Assembly: GCF_025950525.1 (NCBI RefSeq)
Contig: NZ_JAPDGS010000008.1
Coordinates: forward strand, 62,001-126,000
Origin: Stagnihabitans lacustris
Lineage (GTDB): Bacteria; Pseudomonadota; Alphaproteobacteria; Rhodobacterales; Rhodobacteraceae
Length of the DNA stretch: 64,000 nt
Direction: 5' to 3'
Positions 14,491 through 43,131 of the stretch are shown here, one piece after another. The notes below the pieces were generated by a model. It saw nothing but the letters and a program-made list of their open reading frames with translations, ran no database searches and was not told the DNA's origin. Each line of letters starts with the position of its first letter. Positions within the stretch are counted from its first letter, which is position 1. The position numbers and the translations under genes were made by a program.

Positions 14491-14505
14491 ATTGGGGGCG
14501 AATGA

Positions 14506-15120: not shown

Positions 15121-15136
15121 GGCCCAAGGGGTCCGG

Positions 15137-15176: not shown

Positions 15177-15217
15177 CGAAACGGCGCAGAAGGCAGGCGC
15201 AACCAGAGGATTTTGCC

Positions 15218-15646: not shown

Positions 15647-16203
15647 CCCTGTTGACCGGCGGCTTCCACGACGCCCCCCGCCAATCCGCCCGCGCCTTTC
15701 GGCTGGCGCTGAACGCCCTGTCACGCCCTGGCCGGATCGAGACCGTCTCGGGCGCCGAGGGCCCTGCGCCCTTGTCGGCGGCGGCGGCAACGCTGCTTCT
15801 GGTGCTGGCCGACCGCGACACGCCGATCCATCTGGGCGCCAGCCACGATGTGCAGGCGGTCCGCGACTGGATCACCTTTCACACCGGCGCGCCCTTTGTC
15901 GCGCCCGAAGCCGCCATGCTGGCCCTTGGCACCTGGGACACCCTGCCCCGCGCGCGCTTTCCGCTGGGCCTGCCCGACTATCCCGACCGCTCGGCCACGC
16001 TGATCGTCGAGACCGCGACGCTGACGACAGAGGGCCCGCGCCTGACCGGCCCCGGCATCCAGACCGAGGCCCACCTTTCCCTGCCCGAAGTGACCGCCTT
16101 TCAGGAGAACCGCGCGCTGTTCCCGCAAGGTCTGGACTTCTTTTTCACCTGCGGCGCGCGCCTTGCCGCCCTGCCCCGTTCAACCCGCGTGGAGGCCGTC
16201 TGA
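15643..16203 (+). CDS. phnH: C-P lyase core subunit PhnH
   Basis: A 186-residue PhnH homologue (GFHDAPRQSARAFRLALNAL, SRPGRIETV, DRDTPIHLG, GLPDYPDRSATLIVE, TGPGIQ). PhnH is a structural member of the C-P lyase core complex. It begins in a 4-base overlap with phnG and ends at the phnI start, so translation is probably coupled along the whole operon. Length and motif order agree with the family. Confidence 0.95.
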   Translation: MTLLTGGFHDAPRQSARAFRLALNALSRPGRIETVSGAEGPAPLSAAAATLLLVLADRDTPIHLGASHDVQAVRDWITFHTGAPFVAPEAAMLALGTWDTLPRARFPLGLPDYPDRSATLIVETATLTTEGPRLTGPGIQTEAHLSLPEVTAFQENRALFPQGLDFFFTCGARLAALPRSTRVEAV

Positions 16204-17276: not shown

Positions 17277-18118
17277 CCTCCGCAATGACCCTGGCAGAGA
17301 CCAGTTTCAACTTCGCCTATCTGGACGAAGACACCAAACGGATGATCCGCCGCGCGATCCTGAAGGCGGTGGCCGTGCCCGGTTATCAGGTCCCCTTTGC
17401 CAGCCGCGAAATGCCGATGCCCTATGGGTGGGGCACGGGCGGCGTGCAGGTCACGGCCGCTTGTCTGATGCCGGAAGACGTGCTGAAGGTCATTGACCAA
17501 GGCGCCGATGACACGACCAATGCGGTATCCATCCGCAAGTTCTTTCAGCGCACCTCGGGGGTTGCGGTCACGGAGCGCACCGCCGAGGCGAGTGTGATCC
17601 AAACCCGCCACCGCATCCCCGAAGCCGCCCTGACCGAGGATCAGATCCTGGTCTATCAGGTCCCGATCCCCGAGCCCCTGCGCTTTCTTGAACCGCGCGA
17701 AACCGAGACGCGCAAGATGCATGAGCTGGAGGAATATGGCCTCATGCATGTCAAGCTGTATGAGGATATCGCGCGGCATGGCACGATTGCGACGGCCTAT
17801 GCCTATCCGGTCAAGGTCGAGGGGCGCTATGTGATGGACCCCTCGCCGATCCCGAAATTCGACAATCCGAAACTGTCGGGCAACGCCGCCTTGCAGCTGT
17901 TTGGCGCCGGGCGCGAGGCGCGGATTTACGCGGTCCCGCCCCATACCCAGGTCGTCAGCCTGGACTTCGACGACCATCCCTTTGTGGCCTCAAAGGCCGA
18001 TCACGCCTGCGACATCTGTGGCTCTGCGACCTCTTACCTGGACGAGGTCATCACCGACGACAAGGGCGGACGGATGTTTGTCTGTTCCGACACCGACTAT
18101 TGCCGGGGAGGCCAATGA
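17273..18118 (+). CDS. phnJ: C-P lyase PhnJ, radical SAM-type carbon-phosphorus lyase
   Basis: A 281-residue PhnJ, the enzyme that splits the C-P bond of ribose 1-phosphonate 5-phosphate, giving alkane and a cyclic phosphate. The iron-sulfur cysteines are at residues 246, 249, 271 and 277 in the spacing CX2CX21CX5C, which is characteristic of PhnJ rather than of canonical radical SAM proteins. The central segment AMPYGWGTGG-like (PMPYGWGTGGVQVT) is also diagnostic. It overlaps phnI and phnK by a few bases. All key residues appear intact. Confidence 0.96.
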   Translation: MTSAMTLAETSFNFAYLDEDTKRMIRRAILKAVAVPGYQVPFASREMPMPYGWGTGGVQVTAACLMPEDVLKVIDQGADDTTNAVSIRKFFQRTSGVAVTERTAEASVIQTRHRIPEAALTEDQILVYQVPIPEPLRFLEPRETETRKMHELEEYGLMHVKLYEDIARHGTIATAYAYPVKVEGRYVMDPSPIPKFDNPKLSGNAALQLFGAGREARIYAVPPHTQVVSLDFDDHPFVASKADHACDICGSATSYLDEVITDDKGGRMFVCSDTDYCRGGQ

Positions 18119-18894
18119 TGGACCTGTCACATGCGCCCAGCCTGCCGATCCTGTCGGTGCGCGACCTGGTGAAGACCTATGGCACGCGCCTGGGTTGCGG
18201 GCCGATCAGCTTTGACCTTTACCCCGGCGAAGTGCTGGGGATCGTTGGCGAAAGCGGCTCGGGGAAATCGACGTTGCTGTCTTGTCTGGCGGGGCATCTG
18301 GCGCCGGATCAGGGCCGCGTCCTGTGGCAGGGCGGCGATGTCCTGACCCTGGCCGAGGCCGCGCGGCGGCGCCTGTTGCGCAGCGATTGGGCCTATGTCC
18401 ACCAGAACCCGCGCGACGGTTTGCGCATGGGCGTCAGCGCCGGCGGCAATGTCGGAGAGCGTCTGATGGGCGCCGGTGCGCGCCATTACGGCGAGATCCG
18501 CGAGAAGGCCGAGGATTGGCTTGGCCGCGTCGAGATCGACCCTGGCCGCATCGACGACAAGCCGCGGGCGTTTTCGGGCGGGATGCAGCAACGCTTGCAG
18601 ATCGCGCGCAACCTTGTGACCGGGCCGAAGCTGGTGTTCATGGACGAGCCGACCGGGGGCCTGGATGTCAGCGTTCAGGCGCGGCTTCTGGACCTGTTGC
18701 GCGGGTTGGTGCGGCAGATGGGGCTTTCGGTCATCATCGTGACGCATGACCTGGCGGTGGTGCGTTTGCTGGCGCATCGGCTGATGGTGATGAAGGGCGG
18801 CCATGTGGTCGAACAGGGCCTGACCGATCAGGTGCTGGACGATCCGCAGCACGCCTATACGCAGCTTTTGGTTTCCTCGGTTTTGCAGGTCTGA
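18115..18894 (+). CDS. phnK: C-P lyase ABC-type ATPase PhnK
   Basis: A 259-residue ABC-family ATPase with Walker A GESGSGKST, signature FSGGMQQRLQIARNL and Walker B LVFMDEPTGGLD. The FSGGMQQRLQ form is typical of PhnK. PhnK binds the PhnJ face of the C-P lyase core and is not a transporter component. Two adjacent ATG codons (18115, 18118) are possible starts; GGGGAGG lies just upstream. The gene overlaps phnJ by 4 bases and is followed by phnL after a single base. Confidence 0.94.
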   Translation: MMDLSHAPSLPILSVRDLVKTYGTRLGCGPISFDLYPGEVLGIVGESGSGKSTLLSCLAGHLAPDQGRVLWQGGDVLTLAEAARRRLLRSDWAYVHQNPRDGLRMGVSAGGNVGERLMGAGARHYGEIREKAEDWLGRVEIDPGRIDDKPRAFSGGMQQRLQIARNLVTGPKLVFMDEPTGGLDVSVQARLLDLLRGLVRQMGLSVIIVTHDLAVVRLLAHRLMVMKGGHVVEQGLTDQVLDDPQHAYTQLLVSSVLQV

Positions 18895-18895
18895 C

Positions 18896-19594
18896 ATGAT
18901 CGAAGTGCGCAACTTGTCCAAATCCTTCACCCTGCACAATCAGGGCGGCGTCCGGCTTTCGGTGATGGAGGGGGCGGAGGTGTCGGTTGCCCCCGGCGAA
19001 TGTGTGGCGCTGACCGGCGCTTCGGGGGCGGGGAAATCGACGCTGATGCGGATGATCCAGGGCAATTACCTGGCCGCGGGCGGGTCGATCCGCATTGGCG
19101 GAACCGAGATCGTGGGCGCCGATCCGCGCGTGGTCATCGCGCTGCGACGGTCGGTCTTGGGCCATGTCAGCCAGTTCCTGCGTGTCGTGCCCCGCGTGCC
19201 GACAGTGGATGTGGTGGCCGAGCCGCTGTTGGGGCTGGGCCTGCCTTCGGATGTGGCGCGCGACAGGGCCGAAACCCTGCTGCGCCGCCTGAACATTCCG
19301 GCGCGGCTGTGGTCCTTGTCGCCCACAACCTTTTCGGGGGGCGAACAACAGCGGGTCAACATCGCCCGGGGGTTCATCCATGCCTGGCCGGTTCTGTTGC
19401 TGGACGAACCGACGGCCAGTCTGGATGCTGGCAACCGCGAAGTGGTCCTGACGTTGATCGAAGAGGCCAAGGCGCGCGGCGCCGCGATCCTAGGGATTTT
19501 CCACGACGAGGCGGCGCGGGCCCGGGTTTGCGACCGTTTGGTCGATGTGACGGGATTCACCCCCTCCAAAGAACCTTCGGAGCGTGTCGCATGA
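18896..19594 (+). CDS. phnL: C-P lyase ABC-type ATPase PhnL
   Basis: A 232-residue ABC-family ATPase with Walker A GASGAGKST, signature FSGGEQQRVNIARGF and Walker B VLLLDEPTASLD. The opening IEVRNLSKSFTLHNQGGVRL and the FSGGEQQRVNIARG signature identify PhnL. It acts with PhnGHI in coupling phosphonate to ATP and, with PhnK, binds PhnJ. It overlaps phnN by 4 bases. Confidence 0.94.
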   Translation: MIEVRNLSKSFTLHNQGGVRLSVMEGAEVSVAPGECVALTGASGAGKSTLMRMIQGNYLAAGGSIRIGGTEIVGADPRVVIALRRSVLGHVSQFLRVVPRVPTVDVVAEPLLGLGLPSDVARDRAETLLRRLNIPARLWSLSPTTFSGGEQQRVNIARGFIHAWPVLLLDEPTASLDAGNREVVLTLIEEAKARGAAILGIFHDEAARARVCDRLVDVTGFTPSKEPSERVA

Positions 19595-20112
19595 TCTTTG
19601 CCGTCGTGGGGCCCTCTGGGGCGGGCAAGGATACGCTTTTGGCCGGCGCGGTTGCGGCCTGCCCGGGGCTGCACTGGGCGCGGCGTGTGGTGACGCGCCC
19701 GACCCAAGAAGGCGGCGAGCCGTTTGAGGGCGTCGACGCTGCGACCTTTGCCCGCCGCCTTGCTGCGGGGGAATTCGCGCTGCATTGGCAGGCCCATGGG
19801 CTGCGCTACGGGATTGCCCATGGCGAATTAAGCGGGGATCGCGTGGTGTTCAACGGGTCGCGTCAGGCGATCGGGGCGGCGATGGAACGCCTGCCCGGCC
19901 TGCGGGTGATCCGCATCACCGCGCCGTCGAAAGTGCTGGCCGAACGTCTGGCCGCCCGGGGCCGCGAAAGCCGCACAGAGATCGAGGCCCGGTTGGCGCG
20001 CGCCTCTTATGACCTGCCCGAGGGGGTGGATGTCGTCGATGTGGTGAACGACGCCACGCCAGATATCGGCGTGGCGCGGCTTTTGGCGGCGCTTCAGCCC
20101 GCCAGGGTGTGA
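19591..20112 (+). CDS. phnN: Ribose 1,5-bisphosphokinase
   Basis: A 173-residue P-loop kinase of the guanylate-kinase fold with Walker A GPSGAGKDT at residues 7-15, an RRVVTRP substrate loop, FALHWQAHGLRYG and RITAPSKVLAERLAARGRES. PhnN phosphorylates ribose 1,5-bisphosphate to PRPP, the last step that returns the ribose of the C-P lyase pathway to central metabolism. The amino-terminal methionine overlaps the phnL stop. Its 3' end overlaps the convergent DUF1045 gene by 19 bases. Confidence 0.94.
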   Translation: MIFAVVGPSGAGKDTLLAGAVAACPGLHWARRVVTRPTQEGGEPFEGVDAATFARRLAAGEFALHWQAHGLRYGIAHGELSGDRVVFNGSRQAIGAAMERLPGLRVIRITAPSKVLAERLAARGRESRTEIEARLARASYDLPEGVDVVDVVNDATPDIGVARLLAALQPARV

Positions 20113-20750
20113 CGGGCCATCAGGTGAAAGCCGGTGTCCGTTTCGCCAAACAGGCACAGGTCCTGCACCACAAAAGGCGCGGGCAGCGGGCCGAAATGCG
20201 CCGCGGCGCGGGGTTCGATCTGATCCAGGACCTCGGCCGGGAAAGCACCCGAAAGCGTCAGGTGAAAGCGGAATTCCTCCATCACATGCGGATAGCCCCA
20301 TTGGTCCAAAAGCGCGCGTTTGCGGGGGGACAGCGTTTCGGGACGGCGGCGGGCCAATTCGGCCTCGGTCAAGGGCGCGCGGGCCGGGTCAAGGTCGCGC
20401 ACGACCCGGGCCGCCAGCGCCTGCAACGCCGTGGTGTCGCCGCGCGGGATCAAGGCCAGGAACGACCCAAGCCGCGCCATCTGCAACCCATCCAACGTCA
20501 CGGGCGCAAGGTGCGCGCACAGGTCCGCGAAAGCCTGCGAAAGCCGGGCCTGGTCCCAGCCCTCGGCCAGGCGAAACGGCGCCTTGACCGTGCCGTGAAA
20601 GCCGTATTTCCGCGGCTCGGCGGTCCAGAGGGCAAGCCCCTCGGGCTGCGTCACCGGCGCACCCAAGGCGTTGTCCCAGCCCAGCCACTCCGCCGCAAGG
20701 TCGGCAAAAGCCCCCTGCCCCGCCCAGTAAATCGCATAACGCCGATACAT
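20094..20750 (-). CDS. DUF1045 / 2H-phosphoesterase-like phosphonate operon protein
   Basis: A 218-residue protein of the DUF1045 family that recurs in phosphonate operons (MYRRYAIYWAGQGAFADLAA). Two HxT motifs, HGT at residues 52-54 (followed by VKAPFRL) and HLT at 163-165, fit the 2H phosphoesterase fold that opens cyclic phosphates. No phnP gene (the beta-lactamase-fold phosphodiesterase that opens 5-phosphoribosyl 1,2-cyclic phosphate) is present, so a PhnP-replacing role is attractive but inferred. The start at 20750 follows GGAGG. It diverges from phnM across a PHO box. Confidence 0.85.
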   Translation of the reverse strand: MYRRYAIYWAGQGAFADLAAEWLGWDNALGAPVTQPEGLALWTAEPRKYGFHGTVKAPFRLAEGWDQARLSQAFADLCAHLAPVTLDGLQMARLGSFLALIPRGDTTALQALAARVVRDLDPARAPLTEAELARRRPETLSPRKRALLDQWGYPHVMEEFRFHLTLSGAFPAEVLDQIEPRAAAHFGPLPAPFVVQDLCLFGETDTGFHLMARHTLAG

Positions 20751-20772
20751 CAGTGCCTCCTTTTCCCCCCTC

Positions 20773-20803
20773 TTGTCATGCCCTTGTGACACGCCCGTGT
20801 CAC
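20773..20803 (+). promoter_or_regulatory. PHO-box-like repeats between DUF1045 gene and phnM
   Basis: TTGTCAT (20773) and TTGTGAC (20784) repeat with an 11-bp period, and GTGTCAC follows at 20797. The region also forms an imperfect palindrome (12 of 13 positions) around 20784-20809. It serves the divergent promoters of phnM and the DUF1045 gene. Confidence 0.6.
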
Positions 20804-20831
20804 GAGGGCGAAACCCAAGCCGGAACCAAAG

Positions 20832-21968
20832 ATGACCGATACCGTTTTGACCAATGCCCGCATCCTGTTGCCCGATGGCCTGATCCATGGGTCGATCCTG
20901 ATCCGTCAGGGCGTCGTTGTCGACGTCTCGACCGGACCTGCCCCGCGCGACGCCCTGGACTGTGACCGCGACCTGATCCTTCCGGGTCTGGTGGAACTGC
21001 ACACCGACAACCTGGAGCGTCACATCGAGCCGCGCCCCAAGGTCGACTGGCCGCACCGCGCCGCGATCCTGGCCCATGACGGAGAGCTTGCGGCCTGCGG
21101 CATCACCACGGTTTTCGACGCGCTGCGGCTAGGGTCCGACAATGACCCCGAGGGCGAGTTGGGGGAATATGCCCGCCAGTTGGCCGATGACATCCTGGAC
21201 CTGCGGGCCGAGGGCGCCTTGCGCATCGACCACCGCATCCATCTGCGCGCCGAGGTCTGTTCGGTGACGCTGATGGCCGAGCTGGACCGGTTCGGCCCCG
21301 AGGACGGCGTGGGCATCGTCAGCCTGATGGACCACACGCCGGGGCAAAGACAGTTCCGCGACATCGACAAGCTGCGGGCCTATGTGATCGGCAAAAGGGG
21401 CCTGTCCGAAGAGGGCTTCCAAGCCAAGATCGCCGCAGAGCAGGCTTTGGGTGAGCGGGTGCGCGACAGCCACGAAGCCGCCACCGTCGCCGCCTGCCGC
21501 CGCTATGGCGCGACCTTGGCCAGCCATGACGACACCACCGCCGAGCAGGTCATGGCCAGCCACGCCTTCGGCGCCCGCCTGGCCGAGTTCCCCACCACGC
21601 ACGAGGCCGCCGAGGCCTGCCGCGCCCATGGCATCGCCGTCATGATGGGCGCGCCGAACCTGATCCGCGGCGGGTCACATTCCGGCAATGTCGCGGCGCG
21701 CGCCCTGGCCGAGGCGGATTTGCTGGACATCGTCTCGTCGGATTATGTGCCCGCCGCGCTGTTGATGGCGGGGCTGATGCTGGGCGATCTGTGGGACGAC
21801 CTGGCCCGCGGCATGGCGACGGTCAGCGCCAATCCTGCCGCCTCGGTCGGGCTGCGGGACCGCGGGCTGATTGCGCCGGGGATGCGGGCCGACCTGATCC
21901 GCGTGCGGCGGCTGGACGGCGGGGCGCGGGTGCGCGGCACTTGGGTGCAGGGTCAGCGCGTCGGCTGA
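20832..21968 (+). CDS. phnM: Ribose 1-methylphosphonate 5-triphosphate diphosphatase PhnM
   Basis: A 378-residue amidohydrolase-fold enzyme with ILPGLVELHTDNLERH (metal-binding HxD variant near residue 56), ASHDDTT, HGIAVMMGAPNLIRGGSHSGN and SSDYVPAALL. PhnM removes pyrophosphate from the triphosphate produced by PhnGHIL, yielding the substrate of PhnJ. It is transcribed separately from phnG-N, divergently from the DUF1045 gene. Its 3' end overlaps the convergent cbiO gene by 16 bases. Confidence 0.95.
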   Translation: MTDTVLTNARILLPDGLIHGSILIRQGVVVDVSTGPAPRDALDCDRDLILPGLVELHTDNLERHIEPRPKVDWPHRAAILAHDGELAACGITTVFDALRLGSDNDPEGELGEYARQLADDILDLRAEGALRIDHRIHLRAEVCSVTLMAELDRFGPEDGVGIVSLMDHTPGQRQFRDIDKLRAYVIGKRGLSEEGFQAKIAAEQALGERVRDSHEAATVAACRRYGATLASHDDTTAEQVMASHAFGARLAEFPTTHEAAEACRAHGIAVMMGAPNLIRGGSHSGNVAARALAEADLLDIVSSDYVPAALLMAGLMLGDLWDDLARGMATVSANPAASVGLRDRGLIAPGMRADLIRVRRLDGGARVRGTWVQGQRVG

Positions 21969-22786
21969 CCCCAGCCCGCCATCATCGCCCGAAACGCTGC
22001 CGCATCGCGCGGCGGCGCTTCGGTCTTCAGGCCCAAGTCCCGCGCGGCCAGCCACAGATCGACCAGCACTGGAGGCCGCAATCCCACCTGCGCCAGCGCC
22101 GCGGCATCGGTCAACAGGGCCTCGGCCGGCCCCTGCCCTGTCACGCGGCCATCCTTGAACAAGGCGACCTCGTCGGCCAGGGTCCAGGCCAGCTCGATGT
22201 CATGGGTCGAAAAGACCAGCGTCATGCCCTTTGCGGCCAAATGGCGCAGATGGGCCATCAGCTGTTCGCTGGCGGCAAGATCCAGCCCCGCCGTCGGCTC
22301 GTCCAACAGCAGCACATCGGGATGCATCGCCACCGCCCCCGCAATCGCCGCCCGCTTTTTCTGGCCGCCCGACAGCATATGCGTCGGACGATGCGCCAGA
22401 TCGGTCAGGCCAAGGGCCTCCAGCGCCTCGGCCACACGGGCGCGGGCCTGCGCTTCGGACAGGCCAAGGTTCAGCGGACCGAAAGAGACATCTTCGGCCA
22501 CCGTCGCCGCGAAAAGCTGATCGTCGGGGTCTTGCAGCACAAGGGCCACCCGGGACCGCCACGCCGTCAAGTCGCGTCGGGTATAGCCGACCGGCTGACC
22601 TTGCAGCAGGACACGCCCCCGCGCGGGCCGCAGCGTCCCGTTCAGATGCAGGAACAGCGTCGACTTGCCCGCGCCATTCGGCCCCAGAATGGCAAGGCTG
22701 CGCCCCCTCTGGATCGTCAGGTCCAGCCCCTGCAGCGCCGGGACCTCGCCGGGGAAGGTGTAATGCAGGTCTTGGGCCTGGATCAC
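21953..22786 (-). CDS. cbiO: Cobalt ECF transporter ATPase
   Basis: A 277-residue ABC ATPase with Walker A GPNGAGKST, Q-loop VLQDPDDQLF, signature LSGGQKKRAAIAGAV and Walker B VLLLDEPTAGLD. LSGGQKKR and QDPDDQLF are typical of ECF transporter ATPases. The start is the GTG at 22786, which overlaps the cbiQ stop (GTGA); the open frame continues upstream but without family resemblance. It powers cobalt uptake with CbiM, CbiN and CbiQ and lies at the end of the riboswitch-controlled operon. Confidence 0.93.
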   Translation of the reverse strand: MIQAQDLHYTFPGEVPALQGLDLTIQRGRSLAILGPNGAGKSTLFLHLNGTLRPARGRVLLQGQPVGYTRRDLTAWRSRVALVLQDPDDQLFAATVAEDVSFGPLNLGLSEAQARARVAEALEALGLTDLAHRPTHMLSGGQKKRAAIAGAVAMHPDVLLLDEPTAGLDLAASEQLMAHLRHLAAKGMTLVFSTHDIELAWTLADEVALFKDGRVTGQGPAEALLTDAAALAQVGLRPPVLVDLWLAARDLGLKTEAPPRDAAAFRAMMAGWGQPTR

Positions 22787-23517
22787 GCGGGCCACCCAAG
22801 CGCCAGCACCAGGATTTGCACCACGGCGATCCCGGCCAACACGGGCCAGGACGCCGCGGGGCGATCCGACAGCACCCGCATCTCGCCACTCCAGCCGCGG
22901 GCGGCCATCCCCGTCTCCAGCCGGCGGGCCCGGTCCATGGCGCGCGGCAAAAGCCCCGCAATGACCAGTGCGGTCGACCGCAGCCAAAGCCGGTTGGTCC
23001 GATGCCCCAGCCGCGCGCTTTGCGCATGGGTCATGGCGACGGCGCTTTCGCCGATCAGAAAGGTGAAGCGATAGGTCAGCAGCGCGATCTCGACGATTTC
23101 GGCGGGCAGGCCAAGTCGGCGCAGACCGGCCATCAGGTCGGCGGCGGGCGTGGTCAGCGACAGAAGGATCAGGCAAAAGGTCGCGGCCATGGCGCGCAGG
23201 CACAGGGCGGCGGCGTCCTGCAGGCCATGGGGGGCAAGGCCCAGACCTTCGGGTCCGACCTGCACCAACAGAACCACGGCGCCGCTGGCCATGAAGCCCA
23301 AAGGCAGCGCCGCGACCGACAGCCAAAGCCCCAAGGGCACCCGCGCCGCGCCAAAGGTCACGGCCAGGATAACCAAGGCCACCACCGCCGCGCCAGGCCA
23401 CGGCGGGACACTGACCGCGACGATCAGAAAGCCCAAGGTCAACAGCGCCTTTTCGGCCAAGGGCCGGTGGCGCCAGCGGGACAGGCTGGCCGCCCGGTCA
23501 ATCACGCCGATGGACAT
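22783..23517 (-). CDS. cbiQ: Cobalt ECF transporter transmembrane subunit
   Basis: A 244-residue T-component with hydrophobic helices and the two ATPase-coupling motifs of the family (ARRLETGMAARGWSG and a RTNRLWLRSTAL region). The amino terminus SIGVIDRAASLSRWRHRPLAEKALL fits CbiQ. The start overlaps the cbiN stop by one base (TAATG). It links the CbiMN substrate module to CbiO in the cytoplasmic membrane. Confidence 0.93.
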   Translation of the reverse strand: MSIGVIDRAASLSRWRHRPLAEKALLTLGFLIVAVSVPPWPGAAVVALVILAVTFGAARVPLGLWLSVAALPLGFMASGAVVLLVQVGPEGLGLAPHGLQDAAALCLRAMAATFCLILLSLTTPAADLMAGLRRLGLPAEIVEIALLTYRFTFLIGESAVAMTHAQSARLGHRTNRLWLRSTALVIAGLLPRAMDRARRLETGMAARGWSGEMRVLSDRPAASWPVLAGIAVVQILVLALGWPA

Positions 23518-23792
23518 TATTCCGACCGTTCAGCCTTGGCGCGCTCGTGGCGGCGGCCGATGGCATAACCGATCACCAGGGCGCCCAACACGGCCTGCAA
23601 CGTGAAGAACAGCCCCTCGACCTCGCCGCTGGGGGGTTTCCACAGGGGGGTGGCCCAGGGGGTGAAATCGGGGTTGCTCTCTTCGATATGGGCGGCGGCC
23701 TGACCATCCGCCCCACCAAACTCGCCACCGCGCAACAGGGGCAGCGCGACCAGGGCCGCCACGGCCAAAAGCATCCAGGTCTGCCGGGTCAT
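23517..23792 (-). CDS. cbiN: Cobalt transport accessory protein
   Basis: A 91-residue protein with two transmembrane helices ([18 protein letters not shown] and [20 protein letters not shown]) flanking a periplasmic loop with [14 protein letters not shown]. This is the exact organisation of CbiN, which loads cobalt into CbiM. The gene overlaps cbiM by 4 bases. Nickel systems carry NikN instead, but the CbiN-type loop and the B12 riboswitch favour cobalt. Confidence 0.9.
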
Positions 23793-24454
23793 CCGCGTGC
23801 CTCCCCGGCCAAAACCGCGACCTTGTTGTCCGTCTTGCCCGCCAGGGCGTCGATCACGACGACGGTCAAAAGCCCCTCGGCTATCGCCAGCGGGATCTGG
23901 GTCAGCGCAAAGATCGAGGCGAATTTCGCCATGGCCCCGGCAAAGCCGCTGACCGCGTCGGGATAGGCCAGCGCCAGTTGGAACGAGGTGAAGACATAGG
24001 TCGCCAGATCGCCCAAAGCCGCGGCCAAAAAGATCGTGACCGAGGCGCCAAGCCCCACCGCGCGCCCGGCCCGCCAGATGCCCCAGGCGACCCAGGGCCC
24101 CACAACGGCCATCGAAAAGGCATTGGCGCCCAGCGTGGTCAGCCCGCCATGGGCCAACAACAGCGCCTGAAACAACAAGACGATCACCCCCAGCACCGAC
24201 ATGACCGCCGGGCCAAAGACCACGGCGCCAAGCCCGGTCCCGGTCGGATGCGAACAAGAGCCCGTCACCGAGGGGATCTTCAGCGCCGACAGCACGAAGG
24301 CAAAGGCGCCAGCGGCGGCAAGCGTCATCCGCGCCTCGGGGCGTTCGGCGATGATCCGGCGCAACCTTATGGCGCCTGCCACCACGAAGGGGGCGGTCGC
24401 GGCATACCAGGCGGCGCATTGGGCGGCGGGCAAATAGCCCTCCATGATGTGCAT
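23789..24454 (-). CDS. cbiM: Cobalt transport substrate-binding membrane protein
   Basis: A 221-residue S-component. The amino terminus [11 protein letters not shown] carries the metal-coordinating Met-His start of the CbiM/NikM family. Other conserved segments are [19 protein letters not shown] and [21 protein letters not shown]. The start at 24454 follows GGAAGGA. It is the first gene after the cobalamin riboswitch, so expression should fall when adenosylcobalamin is plentiful. Confidence 0.94.
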
Positions 24455-26554: not shown

Positions 26555-27253
26555 TCAGAGCCTGTTTTCGCCGACCAGAAGCACACGTCGCACGTTCGGA
26601 TAGGCGCGGTAGATGGCGGCCTGCAGCTCTGCCATCAGATGCGTCTGGATGTATTGCAAGGCAAAGCTGGACGCGGCTTCCAGCGTCAAAAGCCCGCCTT
26701 CGCAGGCCAAAGGCCGCAGCTTGGCATACCAGGCGGCGAAACGGGCGGGATTGGCCTCTGTCAGATGGGCCGCCACCTGCTCCCATTGCGGATCGTTGGA
26801 CCGGGCGCGGGTGAAATCGACCTTCACGACCTTGGGCTGATCGACCGCGCGTCCCTCTTTGCTGTGGCCGGCCATGCGGCTTTGGAAATCGGGACCAACC
26901 TGAGTCCAAACAGGCTCTGACAAGGCGTAAATGCGGTCGATGCACAGGCGATAGCTGCTGACACGGCCCCGGGCGCCCCGACGCTTGATCTCCAGAAACC
27001 CGGCCTCGATCAGCCGTTTGGTCTCGCGCTTGGCGGTGCGTTCGTCGACCGACCAGAGCGCCGCCATCTCTCGGTGGCCCATGGTCAAATCGTCCTCGGA
27101 CCAGTTATACCGGGCCGTCACCACGGCGATCAGCCGCAGCATCGAGGTTTGTTCAACCCCGCTGCCCGAGAGGCCAGCAACCGACAAAGCGGTCAGGAGG
27201 TCGTATTTCTGAACCCCGGCGCCTGGGCCAGAGAGATGCTTGGGTCGCATCAT
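26555..27253 (-). CDS. DnaA-like plasmid replication initiator
   Basis: A 232-residue protein. The amino-terminal half is a winged-helix-like domain (KYDLLTALSVAGL, ARYNWSEDDLTMGHREMAAL, SVDERTAKRETKRLIEAGFL). The last 80 residues (WEQVAAHL, FAAWYAKLRPLACEGGLLTL, ALQYIQTHLMAELQAAIYRA) resemble DnaA domain I. No AAA+ or DnaA domain IV is present. This is the organisation I associate with DnaA-like replicases of Rhodobacterales plasmids. Divergent parAB genes and an iteron-bearing spacer support the call. The start is the first of two ATG codons; no good Shine-Dalgarno is seen. Confidence 0.8.
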   Translation of the reverse strand: MMRPKHLSGPGAGVQKYDLLTALSVAGLSGSGVEQTSMLRLIAVVTARYNWSEDDLTMGHREMAALWSVDERTAKRETKRLIEAGFLEIKRRGARGRVSSYRLCIDRIYALSEPVWTQVGPDFQSRMAGHSKEGRAVDQPKVVKVDFTRARSNDPQWEQVAAHLTEANPARFAAWYAKLRPLACEGGLLTLEAASSFALQYIQTHLMAELQAAIYRAYPNVRRVLLVGENRL

Positions 27254-27599
27254 GGTGCTGCTGCTCGCTTCGGTTGATCCGATTCTTTATGTGGATATCT
27301 CGGGGGATTTCGCGTTTTTTGTCAATGAGGTTTCGAAAGACGGGAAAAGCGCGCTTCTTTCCAAGAACTCAGGAAAATGAGGGTATATTGGTATAGGGTG
27401 ACAGGCTGGGTGTCCCCTATTTCATCCCCTCATGTCCCCTATTTCCGCGGGTTTCGAGATAGGGTGTCCCCTATTTTCCCGCGTTGCCCCGCCAAACTCT
27501 CGTTTTTCAGCGAAAAAACCCAAAGAACGTGATTTTTGAATTTGCGGATTCGGCTATTCGCGCTATTCAGCATTTCAACGACAATAACGCGAGCATACC
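27254..27599. other. Putative replication origin between initiator gene and parA
   Basis: A 346-bp spacer that is more AT-rich than its surroundings, between divergently transcribed initiator and parA genes. It holds a DnaA-box-like TGTGGATAT (27290-27298, one mismatch to TGTGGATAA), a purine-rich AT stretch (27300-27400), a set of iterons (27393-27477) and two GCTATTC repeats (27553, 27562). Origin function is inferred from position and repeats. Confidence 0.65.
27393..27477. repeat. Iteron cluster, TGTCCCCTATTT repeats
   Basis: Three direct copies of TGTCCCCTATTT start at 27411, 27433 and 27465 (spacings 22 and 32, close to whole helical turns). An inverted near-copy ATAGGGTGACA lies at 27393. 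The third copy is part of the inverted repeat ATAGGGTGTCCCCTAT (27459-27474). Initiator-binding iterons are the likely role. Confidence 0.75.
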
Positions 27600-28904
27600 A
27601 TGCGCGACTACAGCTATTTGCAGCAGATGAACGAACGCAGCCTTGCCCAACAGGCGGCGGTGCGGCGATCGACCTTTTCGCCGGCCGAGGTCAAGACGCT
27701 GCGGCCCTTTTCGATCTGGGAGATTTCGACCTTCATGTTCGATGTCCCTGCCGACACTTTGCGTAAAAAGCTGGCCGAGGACCCGACCCTGCCCCAGGGC
27801 GAGGTCGAGGAAGATGGCCGCCAGCGCTGGTTTACCCTGTCAGAGATCAACGAGTTGCGCCGTCGCGTGCGGTTTCGCGGCAAACCGCTTAGCCCGGAAC
27901 GTCCCAAGGGGCCGGCGCTGCGGGTGGCGGTGTCCAACTTCAAGGGGGGCGTTGGCAAGACGGTCGTGGCGCAGCACCTGGCCAATGCGGCGGCGCTGGA
28001 TGGCTATCGGGTCTTGGTCATCGACTTTGACCCTCAGGCGACGCTGACACATTCGATGGGGCTGGTCGAGGTCAAGGAGTGGAACACGGTCTGGGGCATC
28101 ATGTGCCGCGACCTGTGCCGCGAGGCGGATCGGATCATGGAAAGCTATGATGATCCGGCCGATTGCCCCTATCCGGCGGCTGACGAGCTGCCCAAGGATG
28201 TGCAGGAAATCGGCACGATGCGGGCGCAGGACTTCATTCAAAAGACCTCCTGGCCGACCATCGACATCATCCCCTCCTGTGCCAATGCGGCTTTCGTCGA
28301 GTTTGCCAGCGCCCAGTATCGCAGTCTGCACAAGGCCTGGAGCTTTTTCGGCTGCGTGGCGCGCTATCTGGATGAGCTGCCGCATGACCAGTATGACGTG
28401 GTGATCTTTGATTGCCCCCCGGCGATTGGCTATCAGTCCCTGAACGCGGCTTTTGCGGCGGATGTCCTCTATATCCCCTCGGGGCCGGGCTATTGGGAAT
28501 ACGATTCGACGACGTCCTTCCTGGGGCAGTTGGGCGATGCGCTGCAGGAAATTTCGATGGGGTTTGAAAAGATTGCGGCCAACGCCGGGATCAAGCTGCC
28601 GAAGTCCTTCCTGGATGTGCGGGTCTTGATGACGCGCTATGAGACGGCCAATCCGCTTCATGCCGCCATGCTGGAGGCGTTTCGCAATGTCTTTGGCGCC
28701 GATGTCTGCCAGCATCCGATCGAGATGACGCGGGCGGTCGAACAGTCGGGGCGGTTCCAGATGTCGGTCTATGAGCAGGATTACCGGGAGATGACGCGCG
28801 AGACCTGGAAGCGGGCGCGGCAGTCGTTCGACAATGCCTATCAGGAGTTCAAGGGCTCGATGCTGAAAGCTTGGGCTGCGCGCAATGCGGAGGGTGGCAA
28901 ATGA
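27600..28904 (+). CDS. parA: Plasmid partition ATPase ParA
   Basis: A 434-residue ParA/RepA-type ATPase. The first 100 residues form a DNA-binding segment with an MerR-like region (ADTLRKKLAEDPTLPQGEV, RWFTLSEINELRRR), as in long plasmid ParA proteins that autoregulate. The deviant Walker A KGGVGKT lies at residues 115-121, followed by VIDFDPQAT and FDCPPAIGY. It drives segregation of the replicon together with ParB. The gene reads away from the putative origin and overlaps parB by 4 bases. Confidence 0.9.
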   Translation: MRDYSYLQQMNERSLAQQAAVRRSTFSPAEVKTLRPFSIWEISTFMFDVPADTLRKKLAEDPTLPQGEVEEDGRQRWFTLSEINELRRRVRFRGKPLSPERPKGPALRVAVSNFKGGVGKTVVAQHLANAAALDGYRVLVIDFDPQATLTHSMGLVEVKEWNTVWGIMCRDLCREADRIMESYDDPADCPYPAADELPKDVQEIGTMRAQDFIQKTSWPTIDIIPSCANAAFVEFASAQYRSLHKAWSFFGCVARYLDELPHDQYDVVIFDCPPAIGYQSLNAAFAADVLYIPSGPGYWEYDSTTSFLGQLGDALQEISMGFEKIAANAGIKLPKSFLDVRVLMTRYETANPLHAAMLEAFRNVFGADVCQHPIEMTRAVEQSGRFQMSVYEQDYREMTRETWKRARQSFDNAYQEFKGSMLKAWAARNAEGGK

Positions 28905-29929
28905 CCAAGGGCAATCGGTTTGGCATCGGTCCGGTGGATCTGCCCGCGGAGCCGCGGCGTCCGCGCGATCCGGGGCCGATGAGCGTGGCGGTGCGCGAGG
29001 TGGCGGCCAGCGCGCAAGAGGCCAGCGACAGTCTGGTCGAGAGCCGTCGGCAGAACGCGGCGGATGCGCGGGAATACCGCGCCGCGCGGGAGTCGGGTCG
29101 GGTTATCCTGTCGCTGGGGCTGGATCAGATCGGCGTCACCGCCCTGCCCCGTGACCGGATGGATCTTGCGGATGTGGCGACCTCGGAGGCGATGGAGGAG
29201 CTGAAGGCCTCGATCCGGGAGCGCGGGCAACGCGAGCCGATCGAGGTTTTCGCCAGTGCCGCGGGCTGGGAGCTGAAGGCGGGCTGGCGGCGGTTGACGG
29301 CCTTGCGGCAGCTGCGCGAAGAAACCGGCGATCCGCGGTTCGATCAAGTGCTGGCGCGGGTGACGTCGGGTGGCGAGGATCGGGCGGCGCTGTATCTCGA
29401 CATGGTCGAAGAGAACGTCATCCGCCAGGACCTGAGTTTCGCCGAAATGGCGCATATCGCCATCGAGCTGGCGCGGGACCCGGCTGCGGGGGTGGCCTCG
29501 GTCGAGGATGCCGTGGGGCGGCTTTACCGCGCTTTGCACAAGGTGAAGCGGTCCTATATCCGCGCCTTTGTCGCCTTGATGGGGCAGGTGGACTTGCCGT
29601 TCCCCCGGGCCGTTTCGCGCGATCTTGGGGTGGAAGTGGCGCGCAAGTTGGCCATCGTGTCCCAGGCCGAAGTGGCGGGTCTGCAGGCGCGTCTGGCCCG
29701 GGTCAGTCGCGAGGAAGAGCAGGCTGAAGCGCTGCGGTTGTTCCTGAAGCCTGTGACCGAGGCAAGCGACAAGGGCCCGGATCAGAAGTTCGAGTTCCGT
29801 ATCGGCGAGGCCAAAGTGACCGCCCGCAACGGCGAGTTGCGCATCCGGGCGGCGATGGATTTCACCGCTTTGGACCGCGCCGAACTGGACCGCGCCGTCA
29901 GCGCCTTTTTCGCGGCCTTGGGCGAATAG
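28901..29929 (+). CDS. parB: Plasmid partition protein ParB
   Basis: A 342-residue ParB/RepB-type protein. The CTPase/ParB-N domain shows DVATSEAMEELKASIRERGQ, EPIEVF and GWELKAGWRRLTALRQL near residues 85-145, then a helix-turn-helix region (ENVIRQDLSFAEMAHIAIEL). It loads at parS and stimulates ParA. The start at 28901 overlaps the parA stop. Its 3' end is 4 bases from the convergent copA stop and sits against two palindromes that may be terminator and/or parS. Confidence 0.88.
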   Translation: MTKGNRFGIGPVDLPAEPRRPRDPGPMSVAVREVAASAQEASDSLVESRRQNAADAREYRAARESGRVILSLGLDQIGVTALPRDRMDLADVATSEAMEELKASIRERGQREPIEVFASAAGWELKAGWRRLTALRQLREETGDPRFDQVLARVTSGGEDRAALYLDMVEENVIRQDLSFAEMAHIAIELARDPAAGVASVEDAVGRLYRALHKVKRSYIRAFVALMGQVDLPFPRAVSRDLGVEVARKLAIVSQAEVAGLQARLARVSREEEQAEALRLFLKPVTEASDKGPDQKFEFRIGEAKVTARNGELRIRAAMDFTALDRAELDRAVSAFFAALGE

Positions 29930-29931
29930 CC

Positions 29932-29984
29932 GGTTACCGAGCGGTAACTTTCGGGCCGGTTACCGGGCGGTAACCGGCCCTTTT
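29932..29984 (+). terminator. Tandem palindromes after parB; terminator and possible parS
   Basis: Two 18-bp palindromes with arms GGTTACCG/CGGTAACC lie at 29932-29949 (one mismatch) and 29958-29975 (perfect). The second extends to a 12-bp stem (29953-29980) with loop GGGC followed by TTTT, a good rho-independent terminator for parB. The same bases encode the last residues of copA on the other strand. Confidence 0.65.
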
Positions 29985-32369
29985 CAATCGCAGGGCATTG
30001 CCAAGGACAAAGACCGACGACAAGGCCATGGCCCCGGCGGCGAAGCCGGGCGACAGGCCAAGACCCAAAGCGCCGGTCGCCATCGGGATCAGGGCTGCGT
30101 TGTAGGCAAAGGCCCAGAACAGGTTCTGCCGGATGTTGCGCATCACGGCCTGGCTCAGGTCCACCGCGTCGGCCAGCGCGGGCAGGCGGCCGCCGACCAG
30201 CACGACATCGGCGGCCTCGATCGCCACTTCCGTCCCTGTCCCCATCGCCACGCCGACATCCGCCGCCGCAAGCGCCGGTGCGTCGTTGATCCCGTCGCCG
30301 ACAAAGGCCAGCACGCCGCCCGCCCGCAGCCGTTCCACCGCGGCCACTTTCCCGGCGGGCAAGACACCCGCCACCACCTCGTCGATCCCCAGACCCCGGG
30401 CGATGGCTTCCGCCGTCCGAGCGTCATCGCCCGTCACCATCGCCAGCCGCAACCCCATCGCCCGCAGCCGCGCCAGCGCCTCCGGGGTCGAGGCCTTGAC
30501 CGGGTCCGCCACCGCCAGCATCGCCGCCAGCACGCCATCGACCGCGGCATAAAGCGGGCTGCGACCTTGGGCGGTCAGGCCTTCGACTGCCGCCGCAAAG
30601 GGCGCGACCGACAGGCCCTGCGCCGCCATCTGCGCGCCATTGCCCACCGCCACGCGCCGCCCCGCGACAAGCCCCGAAACCCCCTGCCCGGTGGTCGAGC
30701 TGAAATCCCCCACCTCCCGGATCGGCCCCTCCCAGGCCGCCACCAAAGCCCGCGCGATGGGATGCTCTGACCGCGCCTCAATGGCGGCCACCAGGTCCAG
30801 AACCGTCTCACGGGTGAAGCCCGCGGCCAGGATCAGGTCGGTCAACACCGGGCGCCCCTCGGTCAGCGTGCCGGTCTTGTCCATGGCCACCACCCGCACC
30901 TCGGCCAGCCGTTGCAGCGCCTCACCCTTGCGGAACAGGACCCCCAATTCAGCCCCGCGCCCCGTCCCCACCAGGATCGAGGTCGGCACCGCCAGCCCCA
31001 TCGCACAGGGGCAGGCGATGATCAGCACCGCCACCGCATGAACCACCGCCAGCCCCAGCGACGGCGCGGGTCCAAGCGCCAGCCATCCCAGAAAGGTCAA
31101 ACCCGCCACAAGGATCACCGCCGGCACAAACCACAGCGTGATCCGGTCCACCGCGCCCTGAATCGGCAGCTTGTCGCCCTGCGCCGCCTCGACCATGCGG
31201 ATGATCTGCGCCAGGACCGTCGCCCCGCCGATCGCCTGCGCCTCCATCTCGAAGGCCCCGGACTGGTTCACCGTCCCCCCGGTCACGACCGCCCCCGGGG
31301 CCTTTTCCACGGGCAGGGGCTCTCCGGTGATCATCGATTCGTCCACCCAGCTTTGGCCCTGCGTCACCACGCCATCGACCGGCACACGGGCGCCGGGTTG
31401 CACCTCGATTCGGTCGCCAAGGCGCAATTCGCCCAGGGCCACATCCCGGAAAGCCCCGCCGCGAAACGCCCTTGCCGTCGGCGCCTGAAGCCCCACCAGC
31501 CGCCGGATCGCCTGACCGGTCTGCCCCTTGGCCCGCGCCTCCAGCCAGCGGCCAAACAGGATCAGCGTCACGATCACCGCGGCGCTTTCGAAATAGACCG
31601 TCCCCGAGCCAGTAGGCAAAAGCCCCGGTGCGAAAACCGCCACCATCGAAAAGCCCCAGGCCGCCAGACTGCCCAAGGCAACCAGCGAATTCATATCCGG
31701 AGAAAGGCGAAAAAGCGCAGGTAAGCCTTTGATATAAAAACGAAAGCCTGGGAACGCCATCACCAGGCTTGTCAAGATGGCCTGCAGCCGCCAAGAGGTC
31801 TGCATCCCGATGTTTTCCATGATCCAGTGATGCAGGGCAGGGATCAGATGGCCCCCCATCTCCAGCGCAAAGACCGGCAGGGTCAGGCCCGCAGCCACCC
31901 AGAAATCGCGCCGCAACTGCGCCTCATCGGCCTCGCGTCTTGCGGTCAAGGCATCGGTCCTCCCCCGCACCGCCTCTGTCGCATCATAGCCCGCGCGGTC
32001 GACCGCGGCGATCAGCGAGGCCAGACCCGCCGTCCCCGTCACCTGCGCGCGTTCGGTCGCGAGGTTGACCGAGACCCGGACCACGCCCGGCACCGCCGCC
32101 AGGGCCTTTTCCACCCGTCCGACGCATGACGCGCAGGTCATGCCTGTCACCTCCAGGTCGGTGATCCCGGGTCGCAGATCATAGCCTGCCCGCGTTACGG
32201 CTGCGATCAGGGCCGCACGGTCCAGCCTGCCTGCGATCTCGGCCCGCTCGGTCGCCAGGTTGACCGCGACCGATGCCACCCCCGGCACCGCCGCCAGCGC
32301 CTTTTCCACCCGGCCCACGCAGCTGGCACAGGTCATGCCGTCGATTTCCAGGGTCTCGTGGTCGTTCAT
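29934..32369 (-). CDS. copA: Copper-exporting P1B-type ATPase
   Basis: An 811-residue heavy-metal P-type ATPase. Two amino-terminal metal-binding domains carry MTCASC at residues 12-17 and 77-82. The membrane metal motif is [11 protein letters not shown], the phosphorylation motif DKTGTLTEG, with SEHPIA and [11 protein letters not shown] further on. FAYNAAL and MALSS in the last helices fit the Cu(I)-specific P1B-1 group. It exports Cu(I) from the cytoplasm or loads cuproenzymes. AGGAGG precedes the start, and a CueR-type promoter lies upstream. It diverges from a copper-chaperone gene. Confidence 0.93.
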
Positions 32370-37923: not shown

Positions 37924-38655
<732 letters not shown>

Positions 38656-38663
38656 CTATCTTG

Positions 38664-38810
38664 TCCGGCCGGTCTTCTGGCTTGGTTTCCTCCCCTGCCG
38701 CGCCTTCCCGGGTCCTCCCAGTGGCATCTTGCGGCGGGTCCACCTTACAGCGTTGGGCACGCGGCGGAGTTGCACCGCCTTCCCGGCCTTTGCAGGCGCC
38801 GGACGGGGAA
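38664..38810 (-). promoter_or_regulatory. Cobalamin riboswitch upstream of bluB
   Basis: On the minus strand the order is GGTGCAACTCCGCC, CGCTGTAAGGTGG, GCCACTGG (B12 box 38718-38725), CCGGGAAGGCGCGGC and AGCCAGAAGACCGGCC. This is a second adenosylcobalamin aptamer, 57 bases ahead of bluB. A run of 11 G residues (38822-38832) lies immediately upstream of the RNA. Confidence 0.92.
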
Positions 38811-38883
38811 GGGATAGGGCAGGGGGGGGGGGCGGGTCAAGGGCGCTCTGGCTCCATTGCGTAGCCCGGGGCATGCCCCGGGG

Positions 38884-41016
38884 TCAGCGCGCCCGGATCA
38901 GACGCAAGACCTCGGCGGCGGCCTGGGGGATATTGGTTCCCGGGCCAAAGATCGCCTTGACGCCCGCGGCCTTCAGTTCCTCGTAGTCTTGGGCCGGGAT
39001 GACGCCGCCGCAGATCACCAGGATATCCCCGGCGCCCTTTTCCCGCAGCGCGGCAATCAGTTTCGGCGCCAAGGTCCGATGACCCGCCGCCTGCGACGAG
39101 ATCCCCACCACATGCACATCGTTGTCGATGGCGTCTTGCGCGGCCTCTTCGGGGGTCTGGAACAAGGGCCCCATGTCGACGTCAAAGCCCATATCGGCAA
39201 AGGCGGTTGCGATGACCTTGGCGCCGCGGTCATGGCCATCCTGGCCCATCTTGACCACCAGCATGCGGGGGCGGCGACCCTCAGCCGTCTCAAAGGCCTT
39301 GATATCTGCAGCAATCGCCTCAAAGCCTGCGTCCCCGTGATAGGCCGCGCCATAGACGCCCGACAGCGTCCGCACCTCTGCCCGGTGACGGCCAAAGACG
39401 TTTTCCATGGCAAGCGAGATTTCCCCCACCGTGGCGCGGGCGCGGGCGGCGGTCACGGCCGCCTCCAGCAGGTTGGCCGATCCGCGAGCGGCCTCTTCCA
39501 GGCGCGCAAGGGCTGCGATCACCCTGGCCTCATCCCGGACGGCGCGGGTCGTGGCCAGCCGGGCGATCTGCGCATCGCGCACGGCCATATTGTCGATGGA
39601 CAGGATATCGACCGGCGTATCACTCTTGGGCTGGTATTTGTTCACGCCGACAATCACTTCGGTGCCGCGGTCGATCAGAGCCTGTCGGCGCGCGGCGGAT
39701 TCCTCGATCCGCAGTTTCGGCATCCCACTGGCCACGGCGCGGGTCATGCCACCCAGGGATTCCACCTCTTCGATCAGCGCCCAGGCCTTGTCGGCCAGTT
39801 CCGCCGTCAGGGCCTCGACGTAATAGGAGCCCGCCAAGGGGTCGGCGACATGGGTGATGCCGGTTTCTTCCTGAAGGATCAACTGGGTGTTGCGCGCGAT
39901 CCGGGCCGAGGCTTCGGTGGGCAGCGCCATGGCCTCGTCAAAGGAATTGGTGTGCAGGGATTGGGTGCCCCCAAGCGCCGCCGCCATCGCCTCATAGGCC
40001 GTTCGGATGACGTTGTTATAGGGGTCTTTTTCCTGCAAGCTGACGCCCGAGGTCTGGCAATGGGTGCGCAGCATCAGGGATTCCGGCTTGGTGGCGCCGA
40101 ATTCCGTCATGATGCGGTGCCAGAGCAGGCGGGCGGCGCGCAGCTTCGCGGCCTCCATGAAGAAATTCATCCCGATGGCGAAAAAGAACGACAGGCGCGG
40201 GGCGAAGGCGTCGACATCCATGCCGCGCGCAATCGCGGCGCGGACATATTCGCGGCCATCGGCGAGGGTGAAGCCCAGCTCTTGCACCAGGTTCGCCCCG
40301 GCCTCTTGCATGTGATAGCCGGAAATCGAGATCGAGTTGAACTTCGGCATATCGCTGGCGGTATAGGCGATGATGTCCGAGACGATCCGCATCGAGGGTT
40401 CGGGCGGATAGATATAGGTGTTGCGCACCATGAATTCTTTGAGGATGTCGTTCTGGATCGTGCCAGACAGCGCCGCGCGGGGGACGCCCTGTTCCTCGCC
40501 TGCCACGATGAAAGACGCCAGGATCGGAATGACCGCGCCGTTCATCGTCATGGAAACGCTGACTTTATCCAAGGGGATACCGTCAAACAGGATCTTCATG
40601 TCCTCGACGCTGTCGATGGCGACGCCGGCCTTGCCGACATCGCCGACGACGCGGGGGTGGTCGCTGTCATAGCCGCGATGGGTGGCCAGGTCGAAGGCGA
40701 CAGAGACGCCCTGTTGACCGGCGGCCAGCGCCTTGCGGTAAAAGGCGTTGGATTCCTCGGCCGTGGAAAACCCCGCATATTGCCGGATCGTCCAGGGGCG
40801 GCCGGCATACATCGTGGCCCGGACCCCCCGGGTGAAAGGCGCAAGACCGGGGAAGCCGCCCATATGGGCGAGGTCATTGGCATCTTCGGCGGTGTAAAGC
40901 GGCTTGACCGCGATGCCTTCAAGCGTTTGCCAATTCAGCGTCTCGGGGGCGGCGCCCTTCAGCTCTTTGGTGGCAAGCTTTTCCCAATCCTTGGCCGTCC
41001 AGTCGGAATTCGTCAT
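38884..41016 (-). CDS. Methylmalonyl-CoA mutase
   Basis: A 710-residue single-chain mutase. The catalytic TIM barrel ([42 protein letters not shown]) is followed by the B12-binding domain with [10 protein letters not shown], the base-off DxHxxG motif near residue 605, [11 protein letters not shown] and [10 protein letters not shown]. It isomerises methylmalonyl-CoA to succinyl-CoA with adenosylcobalamin. The gene follows pccA by 106 bases containing two hairpins. The epimerase and the MeaB chaperone genes are not in the window. Confidence 0.95.
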
Positions 41017-41037
41017 CGTGATCTCCTCGTGGAGGTC

Positions 41038-41118
41038 GCCGGGGGCGCTGCCCCCGGACCCCCGGGATATTTATGAAAAGATGAATTCGAAGCGGCGCGC
41101 CGGTCAGGGGCGCCGCTT
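41038..41118. repeat. Intergenic element copy 2 plus hairpin between pccA and mutase genes
   Basis: A GC palindrome (CCGGGGGC/GCCCCCGG) is followed by GGACCCCC, GGGATATTT and ATGAAAAGATGAA. A second hairpin AAGCGGCGC/GCGCCGCTT (41090-41118) follows. Both lie in the spacer between two co-oriented genes. Confidence 0.65.
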
Positions 41119-41122
41119 GGTG

Positions 41123-43123
<2,001 letters not shown>

Positions 43124-43131
43124 GATGGGCC

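Follow-up and report, generated by a model that had tools for sequence, protein, structure and literature searches.

A predicted DnaA-like-II replication and partition module on a probable chromid-like replicon of Stagnihabitans lacustris

Introduction

DnaA-like replicons are known both as plasmids and as chromids (PMC9025767), those of Paracoccus have been called essential chromids (PMC6209633), and a photosynthesis gene cluster has moved onto plasmids of the DnaA-like-I type (PMC6052148). Criteria for recognizing chromids are given in PMC6090056, and we additionally drew on PMC3832669 and PMC13386836; excerpts of these papers were used, and statements resting on them extend to those excerpts. 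Here, we describe the replication and partition genes in a 64,000-nucleotide stretch of DNA from Stagnihabitans lacustris (hereafter, the window), which corresponds to positions 62001-126000 of the 130,944-bp contig C20. This contig belongs to a genome bin (G000) of 4.05 Mb that consists of 21 contigs and is 93.6% complete. We consider it highly probable that the region 26555-29974 of the window serves the replication and partition of a closed DnaA-like-II replicon that measures 130,867 bp and shows chromid-like features. An earlier note on this DNA had delimited the module as 26555-29929; its open reading frame (ORF) coordinates were right, and we extend the end to 29974 because two palindromes lie 3' of parB. 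Genomes, contigs, and loci are identified below by G, C, and L numbers.

Results

The gene rep (26555..27253, minus strand) encodes a 232-aa protein that its Pfam DnaA_N match, plasmid homologues, and position in a tree identify as a DnaA-like-II plasmid replication initiator. The earlier note had described an initiator with a DnaA domain I-like C-terminus and without an AAA+ ATPase, and the profile search agreed on both counts, as residues 156-213 (26615..26788, minus strand) matched DnaA_N at E 4e-7, above the curated cut-off, and no AAA+ family matched Rep at E ≤ 1. DnaA_N was matched by 19/19 aligned Rep members, a profile of these 19 sequences matched solved N-terminal chains of DnaA (4tps_B, 5e-5; 2e0g_A, 1e-4), and Rep did not fall into an unrelated regulator family. 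Residues W175 and F197 are invariant in all 19 members. We take F46 of Escherichia coli DnaA, which matches the conserved phenylalanine of Rep, to be a contact to the helicase DnaB; E21, presumably another DnaB contact, is not kept in Rep. Homologues of Rep are present in 292 of 72,556 plasmid records, every one less than 60% identical and 289/292 covering at least 80% of Rep, and one search of genome contigs for loci related to Rep returned no match. A region toward the N-terminus (residues 50-92; 26978..27106, minus strand) may form a DNA-binding winged helix, the family in question (HTH_Crp_2, Crp-like helix-turn-helix) being matched at E ≤ 0.01 by 8/19 aligned members.

As previously claimed, rep diverges from parA and parB across a 346-bp spacer (27254..27599). 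The partition ATPase gene parA (434 aa; 27600..28904, plus strand) matched AAA_31 at E 3e-26 and partition_RepA at E 6e-58, the latter below that model's cut-off, and is followed in an operon by parB (342 aa, ATG at 28901; 28901..29929, plus strand), whose product is a putative centromere-binding protein according to its position in a tree and matches to ParB_N (E 5e-4) and partition_RepB (E 1e-10) that both fall below cut-off. The ORF layout and the iterons suggest that the spacer is the probable origin of replication. Three exact copies of the iteron TGTCCCCTATTT (27411..27422, 27433..27444, and 27465..27476, plus strand) are spaced 22 and 32 bp apart, and the whole replicon of 130,867 bp contains their 11-bp core at no more than these three places, all in the spacer. 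This array scores 18 of 18, a value reached by 0/300 dinucleotide shuffles of the spacer, and the earlier observation of iterons in the spacer is confirmed. When the spacing was left free, 22/32 fitted best in 12/14 type-II spacers (T. omphalii favored 22/31, and in Pseudosulfitobacter p5 there was a tie with 22/20), and 21/32 fitted best in 6/7 type-I spacers (R. pomeroyi, 21/33), a type-I fit that was noticed only afterwards. With the spacing fixed at 22/32, 13/14 type-II spacers scored higher than every one of their 300 shuffles, and for the type-I arrays 0 to 13 of 300 shuffles came up to the observed score.

Phylogenies placed Rep, ParA, and ParB each among typed DnaA-like-II references at 100/100, and the corresponding module of contig C4 among DnaA-like-I references at 100/100. 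The class trees held 22 rows for Rep and 21 each for ParA and ParB, with reference replicon types taken from Table 1 of PMC9025767 and that of pGal_A255 from PMC4148982, as excerpted. Sulfitobacter pontiacus OXR, whose ParA accession is the same as that of pDSM110277_b, was left out of the class trees and of the palindrome and array sets, and the cut records of Marinibacterium (L045) and Defluviimonas (L084) were left out of the ParA, ParB, and spacer sets, L045 being kept in the Rep tree. The divergent order of rep and parA-parB was found in 20/22 picked plasmid records, the other two (L045 and L084) being cut by the record end. The window ParA is up to 89% identical to those of Cereibacter plasmids and 94.7% identical to that of G010, a member of the same genus. 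By its phylogenetic placement, the module is a DnaA-like-II replicon, a known Rhodobacterales type, which narrows the earlier assignment to a Rhodobacterales class with a DnaA-like replicase and parAB; it has the domain-I-only initiator, adjoining parAB, clade membership, and palindrome (presence only) of that type. Because C20 groups with DnaA-like-II and C4 with DnaA-like-I, two DnaA-like replicons of different groups are present in one cell.

Directly 3' of parB lie the palindromes GTTACCGAGCGGTAAC (29933..29948) and GTTACCGGGCGGTAAC (29959..29974), the latter within a 28-bp hairpin. They are the only two exact GTTACCGNNCGGTAAC palindromes in the 4.05-Mb bin, in which the reversed control pattern has zero occurrences. 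Both are candidate parS sites and together probably constitute the centromere; the second may serve as a terminator as well or instead. Conserved palindromes in DnaA-like replicon modules were reportedly described by Petersen in 2011. A palindrome 3' of parB was found in 14/14 type-II modules of the first comparison set and, within 300 bp and under a criterion of perfect arms of at least 7 that was fixed after inspection, in 34/36 type-II rows (all except L216 and L229): 26 of the GTAACCC class, 4 of GTTACCC, 3 of GTTACCG (class C), and 1 of the GTTTAACGG type. In G010 both palindromes are kept with one base changed in each, and in DnaA-like-I replicons a GTTCCCCGCGGGGAAC-like palindrome is located in the spacer. 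On a ParB tree of these 36 type-II and two type-I rows (Cereibacter sphaeroides p.B, L206, which equals the window, L207, L235, and the other type-I loci being left out), the palindrome labels, with type-I and 'none' included, required 6 changes; after shuffling they required 11.8 on average, with 0/200 shuffles as low, and the GTTACCC class formed one clade (98/96). Palindrome type therefore appears broadly to follow ParB phylogeny across the 36 sequences.

The first 77 bases of C20 are identical to its last 77, and comparison of its ends with those of all other contigs found no overlap, so C20 is best read, by its assembly, as a replicon that closes into a circle and measures 130,867 bp. Among the loci compared, the 77-mer was found at the two ends of C20 only. 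In contigs C4, C5, and C12, too, start and end are identical over 77 bp and neither links to a different contig, whereas ten contigs (C2, C3, C6, C11, C13, C16-C19, and C21) share mutual end overlaps of 59-77 bp, C6 having a 51-bp self-overlap besides its links to C11 and C16; C14, C15, and five small contigs are without an end link. The chromosomal dnaA sits on C15, separate from C20, and ARAGORN found no tRNA on C20. These results uphold the earlier claim that the contig is extrachromosomal and include the circularization check that the earlier note had proposed. A join to a chromosome with dnaA and rRNA operons, which the same note had raised as the outcome that would overturn its claim, was not seen as regards linkage and dnaA; since the bin yielded no 16S rRNA, the rRNA half of that statement is read from contig closure only. 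Another proposed check, GC skew around the origin, was uninformative, the observed range being reached by 340/1000 shuffles of 2-kb blocks, and skew was discarded as evidence for an origin.

In composition, C20 resembles the large contigs. Its GC content of 65.75% lies within 2.5% of theirs (65.1 ± 1.2%, 27 samples), its tetranucleotide correlation is 0.84-0.93, with chromosomal samples starting from 0.82, and its codon-usage correlation is 0.9983, with chromosomal contigs at 0.993-0.997 under crude gene calls; C12, unlike C20, departs from the large contigs in both composition and codon usage. By these measures, three of the four chromid criteria in the excerpted text of PMC9025767 (parAB, GC, and imprint) apply to the replicon.

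The cargo that the earlier note had reported, a C-P lyase system and a cobalamin-linked propionate pathway, was found. The phn genes occupy 13213..21968 on the plus strand (phnE, an acetyltransferase gene, phnG, phnH, a gene without a clear name at the place of phnI, phnJ, phnK, and phnM; 18896-20789 lay outside the scan), and the cobalt ECF transporter genes cbiQ and cbiM follow at 21953..24454 on the minus strand (21953-22795 outside the scan). Farther along, 37924..46171 holds bluB, a methylmalonyl-CoA mutase gene, pccA, and pccB on the minus strand, as well as a RamB-like regulator gene (match below cut-off) on the plus strand. NCBIfam matches above cut-off named phnE, phnG, phnH, phnK, phnM, the phn-linked acetyltransferase, cbiM, cbiQ, bluB, and the mutase; PhnJ was identified by Pfam; and the names pccA and pccB, for putative biotin carboxylase and carboxyltransferase subunits, derive from carboxylase matches beside the mutase. 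PhnJ is single-copy in this genome, on C20, and the full-length mutase is likewise on C20 only, C15 carrying a different mutase. Among the 50 scanned genes of C20 (one scanned in part; 111 called, 61 unscanned), we saw no conjugation genes and no core genes apart from a histidinol dehydrogenase homologue at 61719-63014 of the window.

Within the genus, rep was found in 3/16 genomes, namely this genome, G010 (73% identity), and G011 (40%), which falls short of genus-wide conservation, PhnJ in 12/16 (G010's being a fragment), and the full-length mutase in 11/16, this genome included in each count. In G015, a close relative that is 99% complete, rep, PhnJ, and the full-length mutase all went unmatched, and the replicon may have escaped assembly or binning; since G015 has neither PhnJ nor the full-length mutase, these genes do not seem essential to the lineage. 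In an rpoB tree of the 10 genomes with a usable match, G002 not among them, this genome, G010, and G015 form a clade (98/98), and in a dnaA tree this genome and G015 are joined at 100/100. In G010, which is 75% complete, rep and parA lie on L202, the genes from parB to the mutase lie on L284 in the same order save for a copper ATPase gene, and those from phnE through the gene before phnJ lie on L285, each a separate small contig. The C20 mutase clusters with those of seven other genus members (100/99), outside which fall the mutases of G003, G005, and G008 (3/10 other genus mutases tested).

A different setting of the propionate genes was seen in G002, where a cluster with the carboxylase and mutase genes (pcc-mcm) lies between flanks whose counterparts in the present genome stand 1.2 kb from each other on C17, with the cluster missing and the right flank inverted relative to G002, tRNA-Glu included. 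The only strong match of the G002 cluster in this genome is on C20. The junction on C17 that matches the G002 site (G000:C17:74728-77970, L240) carries the inverted tRNA-Glu block without pcc-mcm genes. G002-like flanks were not seen beside the cluster in G014, G006, G003, G011, G012, G007, or G008 (stretches of 12-40 kb, some ending near the cluster), and G005 had no match at the threshold used for this site comparison.

Several further features were recorded in and around the module. An inverted iteron-like copy (ATAGGGTGACA on the plus strand) was seen by eye at 27393..27403 on the minus strand, relatives looking alike upstream of the array, and an imperfect inverted repeat directly 5' of parA (27557..27592), also found by eye, is a possible operator. 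The DnaA-box-like site of the earlier note is present (27290..27298, minus strand), with one mismatch to TTATNCACA, and the window holds one other site of this kind; the site is not conserved in relatives. Convergent to parB, a gene for a copper-type P-type ATPase (29934..32369, minus strand) overlaps the palindromes with its 3' end, and in G010 no copy was found beside parB. In another genome, G240, contigs C133 (L237) and C113 (L236) carry one parB gene each. Both genes belong to type II or come close to it, and their palindromes differ; the type of L236 is unsure because its ParB branches off far out, on the border of type II, and it may represent a further group. Elsewhere in the bin, C4 (L027, L056, and L057) is a second self-closing contig, of 59,558 bp, with its DnaA-like-I module (rep at about 48006-48728); C5 (56,580 bp) encodes a ParA; C12 (5,612 bp) is foreign in composition, at 52.5% GC; and C10 (L033) comprises 2,500 bp without G or C, its first 120 bases being read as N.

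Discussion

Taken together, the module may work as follows. Rep would bind the 22/32-spaced iteron array through an N-terminal winged helix, and its domain I-like C-terminal part would recruit the host DnaB, with or without the host DnaA; recruitment of host replication proteins is suggested by the lack of an ATPase in Rep itself. The pair of GTTACCGNNCGGTAAC palindromes beyond the 3' end of parB would be bound by ParB, and ParA would move the replicon copies apart, which would accord with a low copy number and stable inheritance. The differing palindrome and ParB lineage would render this replicon and C4, the DnaA-like-I replicon of this cell, mutually compatible.

Several observations weigh against this reading. 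The winged-helix match of the window Rep itself is weak (HTH_Crp_2 E 0.039, below cut-off), and a single-sequence fold of Rep had a mean pLDDT of 36 and was not used. Sites with at most one mismatch to the DnaA box occur in only 3/22 spacers, at differing places, and the box was ruled out as a conserved origin element. With the spacing fixed at 22/32, the score of the type-II array of T. omphalii is reached by 34/300 shuffles, and the G010 array scores 15 of 18 at 22/32 but 16 at 24/42. The GTTACCG class is not clearly clustered on the ParB tree (2 changes; 27/500 shuffles as low), where L225 stands apart from the window and Cereibacter. To these may be added the hindsight in the type-I spacing and in the palindrome criterion, and the closure of C20 being read from assembly sequence. 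Finally, C3, C6, and C21 deviate more in composition than C20 (0.55-0.72) despite their links to chromosomal contigs, and composition alone therefore does not decide the matter.

The strongest competing explanation, that C20 is just an accessory plasmid that spread horizontally rather than a stably co-inherited chromid-like replicon, seems to us unlikely, if a serious contender. It would account for the sparse distribution of rep in the genus, with G011 at only 40% and no match in G015, for the nearest ParA and ParB (G010 aside) being those of plasmids of other genera, and for the three genus mutases that fall outside the C20 group; set against this, C20 agrees with the large contigs in GC content, tetranucleotides, and codon usage, as C12 does not, the C20 mutase groups with those of seven other genus members, and the short contigs of G010 preserve the order of replicon and cargo genes, with the copper ATPase gene as the exception. 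Chromid-like is a fair description of the C20 replicon, and the earlier note's use of the term is supported by composition, codon usage, the distribution of the cargo in the genus, and the congener G010; the label 'essential chromid' is not supported.

It is improbable that the palindromes 3' of parB are instead a transcription terminator of parAB, with the true centromere in the spacer or elsewhere. The second copy does form part of a perfect hairpin of 28 bp with a few T residues after it, and DnaA-like-I replicons have their GTTCCCCGCGGGGAAC-like palindrome in the spacer, but the first copy lacks such a long stem, some relatives have several copies (at least five in L215), the palindrome class broadly tracks the ParB tree, and the two parB genes of G240 have different palindromes, the second of these genes being the long branch of unsure type. 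Least of all do we credit integration of the plasmid in the chromosome with the 77-bp self-overlap as a repeat artefact of assembly, since, for all that chromosomal contigs too end in mutual 59-77-bp overlaps, that C6 overlaps itself by 51 bp while linking to C11 and C16, and that the composition of C20 equals that of the large contigs, the end of C20 overlaps its own start only, its 77-mer is confined to its two ends among the loci compared, C4 (with its own rep-parAB), C5 (with a ParA), and C12 behave like C20, and C20 has no tRNA.

Reading C20 as a chromid-like DnaA-like-II replicon means that a B12-dependent propionate pathway and phosphonate breakdown, common to most of the genus, are here carried on a separately inherited replicon, and both abilities may therefore be gained or lost in one step. 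We tentatively propose, at somewhat less than even chances, that DnaA-like-II comprises several compatibility groups marked by ParB lineage and palindrome class (GTAACCC, GTTACCC, GTTACCG, and perhaps GTTTAACGG), and that in this lineage pcc-mcm moved between chromosome and replicon, propionate and phosphonate use being gained and lost with the replicon. If so, palindrome-class subgroups should coexist in one cell, as two of them may in G240, and the palindrome class would point to a simple rule, readable from sequence, as to which DnaA-like plasmids can share a cell. The replicon kind is already known, and we claim no novelty for the array geometry or the palindrome classes; in the excerpts of the literature searched, the founding 2011 description aside, we found no account of the 22/32 array, the palindrome classes, or the missing chromosomal cluster.

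Compared with described systems, the replicon shares with chromids (as excerpted from PMC6090056 and PMC9025767) plasmid-type replication and partition together with chromosome-like composition and codon usage; unlike those chromids, it is small (131 kb), has no match in a close congener, and showed, the histidinol dehydrogenase homologue aside, no core gene among its 50 scanned genes. The DnaA-like-I replicons (Phaeobacter pGal_A255 and C4) have the same gene order, a domain I initiator, and a related array, and differ in forming a separate clade, in an array mostly best at 21/32, and in the GTTCCCCGCGGGGAAC-like palindrome of their spacer. Among named plasmids, those of C. sphaeroides with 105-134 kb (pC and p.B) have the closest ParA (up to 89%) and the closest ParB (64%), and they share the palindrome class of the window, whereas their Rep is only about 49-50% identical and their neighbouring genes differ. 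DnaA-like-II replicons at large mostly have the commoner GTAACCC..GGGTTAC palindrome in place of GTTACCGNNCGGTAAC, and the window Rep is less than 60% identical to all 292 records. Paracoccus aminophilus pAMI5 groups with the DnaA-like-II replicons here, and with those of Sulfitobacter (pDSM14862_d and pDSM110277_b) the present module has in common a domain I Rep, divergent parAB, the 22/32 array, and a palindrome 3' of parB.

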